Assembly: GCA_025360005.1 (NCBI GenBank)
Contig: JANYDA010000032.1
Coordinates: forward strand, 212,624-276,623
Length of the DNA: 64,000 nt
Source of the DNA: Fibrobacteria bacterium
GTDB lineage: Bacteria > Fibrobacterota > Fibrobacteria > UBA11236
Direction: 5' to 3'
Made by a program: the position numbers and the translations under genes. A model generated the notes under the pieces. That model was not told the DNA's origin. It ran no database searches and worked only from the letters and a program-made list of their open reading frames with translations. Positions 28,609 to 61,889 of this stretch are shown here, piece by piece (positions within the stretch are counted from its first letter, which is position 1; each line of letters begins with the position of its first letter).

Positions 28609-29814
28609 TTAACGGGAAATCAGGCTGCGCATCTTCCAGATCAAGGAAGGCGTGCTCCAAAGAGTGGTGAGAAAAATCCGGCTCATGGTCACCTTATCCA
28701 CGGGAATCTTGGCCAGGCTGCCGGCGGCCTTATCGAAAGTCCTGTCCTGGATTTCCGCGAAAGGCGCCTTGGCGCGGTGGATGCGCAGGTTGGCGTTTCC
28801 ATAAGCATCATCCCACTTATCCTTGTAAGCCTTATAGTAAGGCGCCTTCTCGGATTCGGATGCCAATCCTATCACGGCCAATGCCGCTTCCGCCGCCAAC
28901 TGCCCGCCCTTCATGGCTTCCAGGATGCCGGCCCGGCTGATGGGGTTCACCATGTTGGCCGCGTCCCCGGCCTTGAACAGGTTGTCCACCGCCAACGGTT
29001 CATGCGTGTAGCCGCAAGGAATCACTCCGCCATGGACGGTTTCCACGATAACCCCGGGGTAAACCTTGTTCATGAAATCCGTCATCGTCTTGCGCGCCGG
29101 GGCTTCCTTGGAGAACCGCTTGCCGATCACCAGGCCCACGTTGGCCACGTCCTTGTCGCGCGGGAAAAGCCAGGCATAACCCCCGGGCGCATAATTCCTG
29201 CCGAAGAACATCTGGATGTAATTGGTGGGATATTTCAAGCCGCGAACCAGCGCGAACAAGGCGGGCTCCACGTCGAAATCCCCCTGCGTGATCTTCTCTT
29301 CCCGGCCGAACCCGAGCCCCGGGCCGCTGGCGTCGATGACGACGCGCGCTTTGATCTCGCCTGCGGAAGCGCCTTCATACCTGATCACGCGCCGCCCATC
29401 CTCGAAGCGGGAAACGGAAACCGCGCGCGCGCGGAAATTGCAATGCGCGCCCAACCTGCGCCCTTCCTCCGCCAGATTTTTATGCATCAGGGCCCGATCG
29501 ATCAAGAGCCCGCTGCCTGGATGGCGGAAGGTGACCCGGGTGCCATTGGGGGAAATGAAGATCACGCCGTCGATCGGCTCGCGGATCCAGGCCGGCTCCA
29601 CCTTGGGAACCAGGTCCCGCAATCCCTGGGCGGAAACCGCCTCCGCGCAGGAAACCGGCTCGCGCCAAGGATCCCGCTTATCCAACAATGCCACCGAATA
29701 CGGCTTGCCGGCGCGCTTTAGATTCGCGAGCCCGATATTCAAGGCCGCCAAGAGCCCTGCAGGCCCGGCCCCGATCACGACGACATCATATTCCGACAGC
29801 AATGCATCCTGCAT
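28609..29814 (-). CDS. Geranylgeranyl-reductase-family FAD-dependent oxidoreductase
   Basis: The product (401 aa) has an N-terminal FAD-binding motif VVVIGAGPAGLLAALNIG (11-28), a substrate-pocket segment EPVSCAEAVSAQGL, the central VVIDASGPG, and the FAD-binding LFKAGDAANMVNPISRAGILEAMKGG near 290-315. This is the digeranylgeranylglycerophospholipid reductase/geranylgeranyl reductase family, which saturates isoprenoid chains of lipids, quinones or chlorophyll. In a bacterium with a futalosine-like deaminase it might reduce a menaquinone side chain, but that is inference. No membrane helix is present. Confidence 0.85.
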   Translation of the reverse strand: MQDALLSEYDVVVIGAGPAGLLAALNIGLANLKRAGKPYSVALLDKRDPWREPVSCAEAVSAQGLRDLVPKVEPAWIREPIDGVIFISPNGTRVTFRHPGSGLLIDRALMHKNLAEEGRRLGAHCNFRARAVSVSRFEDGRRVIRYEGASAGEIKARVVIDASGPGLGFGREEKITQGDFDVEPALFALVRGLKYPTNYIQMFFGRNYAPGGYAWLFPRDKDVANVGLVIGKRFSKEAPARKTMTDFMNKVYPGVIVETVHGGVIPCGYTHEPLAVDNLFKAGDAANMVNPISRAGILEAMKGGQLAAEAALAVIGLASESEKAPYYKAYKDKWDDAYGNANLRIHRAKAPFAEIQDRTFDKAAGSLAKIPVDKVTMSRIFLTTLWSTPSLIWKMRSLISR

Positions 29815-30130
29815 AAGAACCGCTAAATGTAGTCAACTCCCCCCACCCCGTCCCCGCGGGAAAGAGCGCGGGTGCCTGGGGCTCCTTGCGCTTCCGCGGG
29901 CGCGGATCGGGTCCAAACCGAATCCTCGCCAAGAAGGAAGCCGACCGGCAATGGCGCGCCCGGTGAGCCGCGGAACCAGAGTTGTGATTCCAAGAAGAAT
30001 GCGCCTATCAGCCCCCAGCGCAAGGTAGAGGTTGCGCCCGTAAACCGCAAACCCTTTCGGCCTGTGGCGAGGTACCTGAGGGTTGGACCCGATCCGCGCC
30101 CGCGGAAGTCCATTCAGATCAAGGCCCCGC
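29815..30130. other. 316-bp gap between ung and the GGR-like gene, holding a MITE-like element
   Basis: I see no coding sequence with protein-like composition here. Most of the gap is occupied by the 24-bp perfect inverted repeat and its 170-bp centre described separately. Short flanking pieces outside the arms also match each other in inverted orientation (GGGGC at about 29879 and GCCCC at about 30123). Confidence 0.5.
29891..30108. repeat. 218-bp element bounded by a 24-bp perfect inverted repeat
   Basis: The left arm 29891-29914 (beginning CTTCCGCGGG) is the exact reverse complement of the right arm 30085-30108 (ending CCCGCGGAAG). Inside the arms imperfect symmetry continues: CTCGCCA occurs after both arms when each is read inward. 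The centre of 170 bp holds no gene. Size and structure fit a MITE or a REP/BIME-like palindromic element; no transposase or target-site duplication was recognised. Confidence 0.65.
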
Positions 30131-30847
30131 CTAGATCTGCCAGTCAATCGGAGCACGCCCCGATCCCGTGAGTATCGCGTTGGTTTTGGAAAAATGCCGG
30201 CACCCGAAGAAACCCGCATGCGCCGAGAAAGGGGACGGATGCGCGGCTTTGAAAACATGATGGCGGGCGGCGTCGATGACGGATCCTTTTTCCTGCGCGG
30301 GCCGTCCCCACAAAAGAAAAACCAATCCCCGCTTTTCATCGTTCAAGGTCTTGACCACCGCATTGGTGAAGGCTTCCCATCCTTTGCCATGATGGGAACC
30401 CGGCTGCCCGGCACGCACGGTGAGGCAGGCATTGAGGAGAAGCACACCCTGTTCGGTCCACTTTTCCAGATTGCCTTGCGAGGGAACGGTGCATCCCATA
30501 TCCTCATGCAGTTCCTTATAGATGTTCACCAAGCTGGGAGGAGGTTTCACGCCCGCCTGCACGGAAAAGCACAGGCCATGGGCCTGGCCCGCCCCGTGAT
30601 ACGGATCCTGCCCCAAGATCACCACCTTGACGGTATCGAAGGGCGTCTTGTTGAATGCGTTGAAGATGAAAGGCCCCGGCGGATAGACGACGGCGCCTTG
30701 GCGCTTTTCCTCTTTCAGGAAGCCCTTCAACTCCGCGAAATAGGGCTTGCGGAACTCATCCGCCAGCCGCTCTTTCCAAGAGGGTTCGATTTTCGGATCG
30801 ATGCGGGATTCCGCGGTGTCGGTGAGGGCCGGGCCGGTTTCTTCCAT
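30131..30847 (-). CDS. ung: Uracil-DNA glycosylase (family 1)
   Basis: Ung removes uracil from DNA as the first step of base excision repair. The 238-residue protein has the water-activating motif VVILGQDPYHGAGQAHGLCFS (about 75-95), LLLNACLTV, and the DNA-intercalation loop HPSPFSAHAGFFGC near the C-terminus. Size is typical. The last codon lies at the edge of the MITE-like region, but the C-terminus (APIDWQI) is normal, so the element did not disrupt the gene. Confidence 0.96.
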   Translation of the reverse strand: MEETGPALTDTAESRIDPKIEPSWKERLADEFRKPYFAELKGFLKEEKRQGAVVYPPGPFIFNAFNKTPFDTVKVVILGQDPYHGAGQAHGLCFSVQAGVKPPPSLVNIYKELHEDMGCTVPSQGNLEKWTEQGVLLLNACLTVRAGQPGSHHGKGWEAFTNAVVKTLNDEKRGLVFLLWGRPAQEKGSVIDAARHHVFKAAHPSPFSAHAGFFGCRHFSKTNAILTGSGRAPIDWQI

Positions 30848-61754: not shown

Positions 61755-61889
61755 GTCGGGCGTCGGGTGTCGGGCGTTGGGCGTCAAAACCTGGGACCGG
61801 TTTTATACGCATTTGCTCCAGGCGCTCAGTAACCTTTTTGCCTTGCGTTTCTTAACTCCGCGCCCGATGCCCGATACCCGACGCCCGAC
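61755..61889. repeat. Inverted pair of heptamer arrays between tssM and tssA
   Basis: Left arm 61755-61782: four 7-base units (GTCGGGC, GTCGGGT, GTCGGGC, GTTGGGC). Right arm 61862-61889: four units (GCCCGAT, GCCCGAT, ACCCGAC, GCCCGAC), the reverse complement of the same words. They are separated by 79 bases, so the arms could form a long imperfect stem. The 61728-61982 gap holds no gene otherwise. Confidence 0.75.

Follow-up and report, generated by a model that had tools for sequence, protein, structure and literature searches.

A 218-bp inverted-repeat element between ung and a geranylgeranyl-reductase-like gene keeps its pairing in two Fibrobacteria species

What is the long inverted repeat that separates ung from a geranylgeranyl-reductase-like gene (GGR) in a Fibrobacteria bacterium: a mobile element, a structured RNA, or something else? 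In the window analyzed here (the whole stretch of DNA, 64,000 nucleotides), the repeat is perfect over 26 bp, encloses a spacer of 166 bp, and totals 218 bp (Table 1); with mismatches allowed, it reaches outward to 49 nt at 80% complementarity. The preliminary description had the outer coordinates right and the sizes wrong, giving a 24-bp exact repeat and a 170-bp center. No other perfect repeat longer than 14 bp, at spacers up to 400 bp, occurs across the 64-kb window. Markov controls of the window (n=10) contained no arm above 14 bp, and in shuffles (n=100) the mean number of arm matches, with three mismatches tolerated, was 0.00. Read on the minus strand, the element starts 22 nt past the ung stop codon and ends 76 nt ahead of the GGR-like start.

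Table 1. Coordinates of the ung element, its parts, its neighbors and related loci (window positions unless a genome and contig are given; G000 is the source genome, G002 the second carrier).
Feature	Coordinates	Strand	Remarks
Whole ung element	29891..30108	-	Bounded by the perfect repeat; same sense as ung and GGR
Orthologue of the ung element	G002:C113:65217-65437
5' arm of terminal helix P1, 26 bp	30083..30108	-	21/26 identical to G002, 5/5 changed pairs compensated
3' arm of terminal helix P1	29891..29916	-	Perfect partner of the 5' arm
5' strand of inner helix P2, CCTCGCCA	30065..30072	-	Same in both species
3' strand of inner helix P2, TGGCGAGG	29924..29931	-	Same in both species
Left interior	29970..30064	-	Neutral-rate drift, 54/93, 8 gap columns
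47-nt conserved block, 44/47	29922..29968	-	Predicted hairpin; overlaps P2; beside the GGR-proximal arm
ung, uracil-DNA glycosylase, upstream gene	30131..30847	-	UDG, PF03167, 63.2 bits
Geranylgeranyl-reductase-like FAD protein (GGR), downstream gene	28609..29814	-	PF22578, 57.7 bits
R2 family members	L116-L139, e.g. G000:C52:151936-152060 (L120)		117-240 bp, conserved core hairpin

The center had been called non-coding, and our analysis bears this out. Three open reading frames that overlap the element gave no Pfam match at E<=1, and the two orthologous copies described below are separated by gaps of 1, 1, 2, and 5 nt, so the element as a whole is not coding. That it forms part of an unrecognized short coding region is highly improbable: changes in the 47-nt conserved block do fall mostly at third codon positions of one minus-strand frame (judged by eye, and too few to test), but this reading has to contend with the frame-breaking gaps and the lack of a Pfam match. 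A search against 4227 Rfam families gave no match at the gathering threshold; one weak match at E<=10, SNORA57, scored 16.1 bits against a gathering score of 40 and was taken as chance. No tRNA was found in the window and no promoter-like site in a sigma-70 scan of 29700-30250. One terminator-like site lies nearby (plus strand, 30167-30179), no more than shuffles yield (mean 0.8). A literature search of titles and abstract openings found no description of the element or of the R2 family introduced below. Directly before the GGR start, at 29824-29833 on the minus strand, is a conserved ACTACATTTA-like box that also occurs in G002, G004, G005, G003, and G001. It is kept in these six genus members with or without the ung element, and is possibly a promoter or leader.

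We searched for further copies in several collections. The source genome, a 4.98-Mb assembly in 65 contigs, has no second copy at E<=0.001. When 61 genomes, 60 of them relatives, were searched at the DNA level, one further carrier emerged: G002, from the same genus, where the element is likewise single-copy and lies in the same ung-GGR gap. A covariance model built from these two copies (R1) found nothing further in the 61 genomes at E<=1 or in 167 genomes of the phylum at E<=0.1, leaving 2 carriers of 167 with the source included; filtering in both R1 searches was stricter, and weak matches may have escaped. Several R2 elements were among the best R1 matches, on both strands alike, which points to the stem and not to homology. 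No match was found in 72,556 plasmid and 50,697 phage records, and an exact pattern of the conserved block had 0 matches in viral contigs. Among six genomes of the genus, a close arm pair (up to three mismatches) occurs at the two known copies only.

Using tblastn over 35 loci, we found ung adjoining GGR in eight genomes, two of which have the element. The distance between the two protein matches is 319 and 536 nt in the carriers versus 22-95 nt in the six non-carriers (G004, G005, G003, G001, G008, and G007). Because these six relatives have element-free sites, the element was gained or lost, and it is not generally needed. In a tree of ung and GGR from the eight genomes, the carriers are sisters with moderate support (88/90) and G004 is next; judging from these sequences, one gain on the carrier branch, or an older gain followed by loss in G004, would fit. 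The 100-nt gap of G004 was examined for a remnant, and local alignments to the two copies were not significant, with 228/500 and 30/500 shuffles as good. The gap of G008, a family-level relative, holds a different perfect palindrome (L012, near 1440-1495), formed by CCAATGGCGGTAGGGGCGCG and its complement with almost no loop.

Bacterial MITEs are small, non-coding, multi-copy elements with terminal inverted repeats and target duplications. The preliminary description had offered such an element as one of two possibilities, to be checked by several copies, empty sites, and target duplications. Of these, empty sites were found, in the six relatives; several copies were not, and no flanking direct repeat was seen by eye. 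With one copy per carrier genome, always in the same gene gap, and no other close arm pair in the genus genomes, the claim fails the test that the description itself had set for refuting it. If the common ancestor of both carriers had received a MITE behind ung, that insert or its relic would account for the long terminal inverted repeats, the 218-bp non-coding span, the element-free sites, and the sister position of the carriers. Such an insertion is nonetheless quite unlikely given the single copy in both genomes, the lack of any further match in the phylum genomes (under the stricter filters), plasmids, and phages, the absence by eye of a direct repeat in the flanks of both copies (which an old insert could have lost), and the imperfect outward extension of the repeat; moreover, the arms of a dead insert so old would have decayed. 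Nothing shows transposition, and the mobile reading is not supported by the sequences compared. The Y1 transposase (PF01797) of IS200/IS605 or REP/RAYT hairpin elements was found in neither carrier and in one of the six genus genomes.

We then compared the two copies, which are identical at 156 of 215 positions, using four-fold sites of the flanking genes as a neutral reference (103/184 identical in GGR and 50/94 in ung; together 153/278). The left interior does not differ from this level (P=0.63), and thus looks neutral. The arms, at 21 of 26 positions identical each, changed more slowly in this one species pair (P=0.012 versus four-fold sites, 0.040 versus the left interior), as did the 47-nt block (P=8e-8 and 5e-6, respectively), and P2 is identical at 8/8 positions per strand (16/16 in total). 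Five of the 26 P1 pairs differ between the species; all five are changed on both sides and are Watson-Crick in both, with none broken. A sixth pair, immediately inside P1, is also changed on both sides, and the arm in G002 is perfect over 29 bp. Had the arms drifted like four-fold sites, the probability of 26 intact pairs in one genome would be ~3e-7. The outermost 10 bp of both arms are unchanged. The alignment shows that both species inherited the element at this one position between ung and GGR, with its pairing kept and its block conserved.

For the two copies, RNAalifold predicted 57 pairs on the minus strand and 54 on the plus-strand alignment; in each case, both partners had changed in 7 pairs. 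The compensatory changes support the helices from two sequences only, and the plus strand equally so. In the consensus fold, a UUCCUUCU stretch of the 47-nt block stays unpaired. Folding-energy z-scores for the whole element on the minus strand were -8.4 (G000) and -7.8 (G002), with equal folding on both strands in G002 (-7.8 versus -8.0). After removal of P1, minus-strand values were -2.4 and -1.4 and plus-strand values +0.2 and +0.1. Taking away P2 as well left the interior with minus-strand scores of -1.1 and -0.6, no better than chance, so P1 and P2 hold almost all of the stability and the structure signal is that of the long helix; even so, this interior folds better on the minus strand in either species, the plus-strand scores being +1.7 and +0.9. 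The arms hold 0 G-U pairs among 26 (G000) and 29 (G002), which has P ~0.06 if 5% G-U is usual, 0.003 if 10%, and 0.28 at the 2.3% of the R2 family. This lack of G-U pairs keeps both a DNA-level function and template-switch correction in play.

Template switching has been proposed to yield multi-base compensatory changes (Monttinen and Loytynoja 2022, PMC8794818). Under this explanation, template switching or conversion between the arms would keep them identical by mutation, on an old inverted repeat of no other importance. Every changed arm pair here is indeed perfect in both species; neither G-U pairs nor one-sided changes occur. In another long repeat of the window (61755-61889), one column is altered alike in both arms between the species, but three are altered on one side. 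By our reasoning, however, correction alone should leave the arms at neutral divergence, and the arms of the ung element are slower than that, at modest P values from a single species pair; correction also leaves the 47-nt block and P2 unexplained. We consider this explanation unlikely.

Slightly less likely again, in our estimate, is an element that acts as DNA: an extruded cruciform, a hairpin of single-stranded DNA, or a site for a protein or recombinase, such as an invertible segment before GGR. In the invertible promoters of Bacteroidales, inverted repeats flank a short segment ahead of a gene. The perfect arms without G-U pairs, the unchanged outermost 10 bp, and the position upstream of GGR would suit such a role. 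However, the two assemblies, one per species, show the interior in a single orientation, the sigma-70 scan gave no promoter-like site (the promoter type of the phylum may differ from the scanned consensus), no Bacteroides-type -7 box (TANNTT[TG]) is common to both species, and the 309-kb contig of the element carries 0 of the genome's 10 Phage_integrase matches. The Bacteroides-type box TANNTTTG was not enriched before 249 mechanical ORF starts (3 versus 4 in a reversed control).

We tentatively favor a structured, non-coding element specific to this lineage, and most probably a hairpin in the RNA of the ung 3' region. The preliminary description had offered, as its other possibility, a large structured RNA in the ung/GGR transcript; with compensated arm pairing and the conserved P2 and block, this fits better than a mobile element, and an action as RNA is a prediction from sequence. 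Transcription would run along the minus strand, and the element would either form the 3' part of the ung transcript or exist as a processed RNA. Closing the element, the long helix P1 would protect or set the RNA end and would be a likely target of RNase III. It could also present the conserved block, whose UUCCUUCU stretch might pair with purine-rich ribosome-binding sites. If transcribed, the element would add an uncatalogued structured RNA to a phylum represented here largely by metagenome assemblies. It also offers a small test case for the way in which long hairpins remain perfect across deep divergence, with arms, a neutral interior, and a conserved block all within one 218-bp stretch and a comparison species ready.

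The genus holds other long-stem elements. We judged the frequency of long repeats on 439,006 bases of G000, 195,364 of G002, and 47,776 of G004. A 240-bp element of G002 (G002:C113:12984-13223, also L087:12984-13223) has no counterpart at the syntenic place in G000; five of six genus genomes hold relatives of it, partial or full. In a model built from seven copies (R2), both partners have changed in 22 of the 51 consensus pairs. Searching 40 genomes with R2, with at most 54 candidates scored per genome, gave matches in six, all of the genus, at no fewer than 24 sites: at least 8 in G002, 6 in G005, 3 each in G003, G001, and G000 (two of those in G000 partial), and 1 in G004. The other 34 genomes had none among the candidates scored. 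In the alignment of matches, 91.7% of cells pair, compared with 33-42% for slid controls, and 27/27 terminal pairs have changes on both sides; the 25 rows counted include four reverse-strand matches of sites already in, and the alignment is fitted to the model, which favors structure. A forward alignment held 21 of the 24 sites, leaving out L126 and L131 (partial) and L137 (contig end). Its terminal helix had 497 Watson-Crick, 13 G-U, 24 A-C, and 26 other cells; with 13 G-U versus 24 A-C (P=0.10), G-U is not favored on the forward strand.

In six R2 copies (L120, L129, L130, L139, L124, and L125), 1-3 nt separate the element from the 5' end of a tRNA gene on the opposite strand. Four are at tRNA-Gly, between tRNA-Gly and tRNA-Tyr in one tRNA cluster (in G000, G003, G001, and G002), and two at tRNA-Leu (in G003 and G001). 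An Rfam scan of 20 R2 loci (L139 left out) found tRNAs only. A smaller palindromic repeat with GCTCGCTCCCGGCTCAC or similar is nested in R2 copies L102, L107, and L109, between the inner helix and the core, and GCTCGCTCCCGGCTCAC-like palindromic repeats also occur outside R2 copies (L103, L110, and L108). Long inverted repeats with CGTCGGG-like units were seen at 61755-61889 of the window, G002:C113:100772-100914, L093:467-601, and L096:2707-2897; the one in the window has a positional counterpart in G002, and some of these repeats enclose terminator-like hairpins. The long-repeat pair 278317/104711 was left out of the comparison of arm changes.

The ung element was considered as a member of the R2 family and rejected: it scores 20 bits via the terminal stem, the conserved core hairpin is absent, and local alignments to 21 R2 copies were no better than shuffles. 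Taken together, the ung element and R2 suggest that these bacteria may generally carry long-stem elements. A further idea, possible though doubtful, is that a class of non-coding elements of the genus is recognized by its long-hairpin shape and not its letters, as both the ung element and R2 keep arms of 20-30 bp paired while these are rewritten. If true, these bacteria would have either machinery dedicated to reading structure, such as an enzyme of RNA processing or of single-stranded DNA, or unusually strong correction of arms.

Among known systems, bacterial MITEs share the size, terminal inverted repeats, non-coding nature, and element-free sites in relatives; unlike them, the ung element is single-copy and in orthologous position, with compensated arms and no target duplication seen. 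Invertible promoters of Bacteroidales likewise place inverted repeats on either side of a short segment that precedes a gene, whereas simple scans found no promoter inside the ung element, there is no tyrosine recombinase on its contig, and one orientation was seen. Within the genus, the R2 family resembles it in the long terminal helix and in arms that changed yet stayed paired, but is dispersed, has its own core, and shows no sequence similarity. The RNA hairpins attributed to template switching (PMC8794818) also have a perfect stem through multi-base compensatory changes; those are RNA genes with reconstructed ancestral histories, in contrast to two intergenic copies with arms slower than neutral. 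Finally, set beside the structured RNA candidates from comparative genomics (PMC2864571), the ung element differs in having two sequences only and no Rfam match at threshold, and resembles them in being intergenic, with covarying helices and a conserved block.
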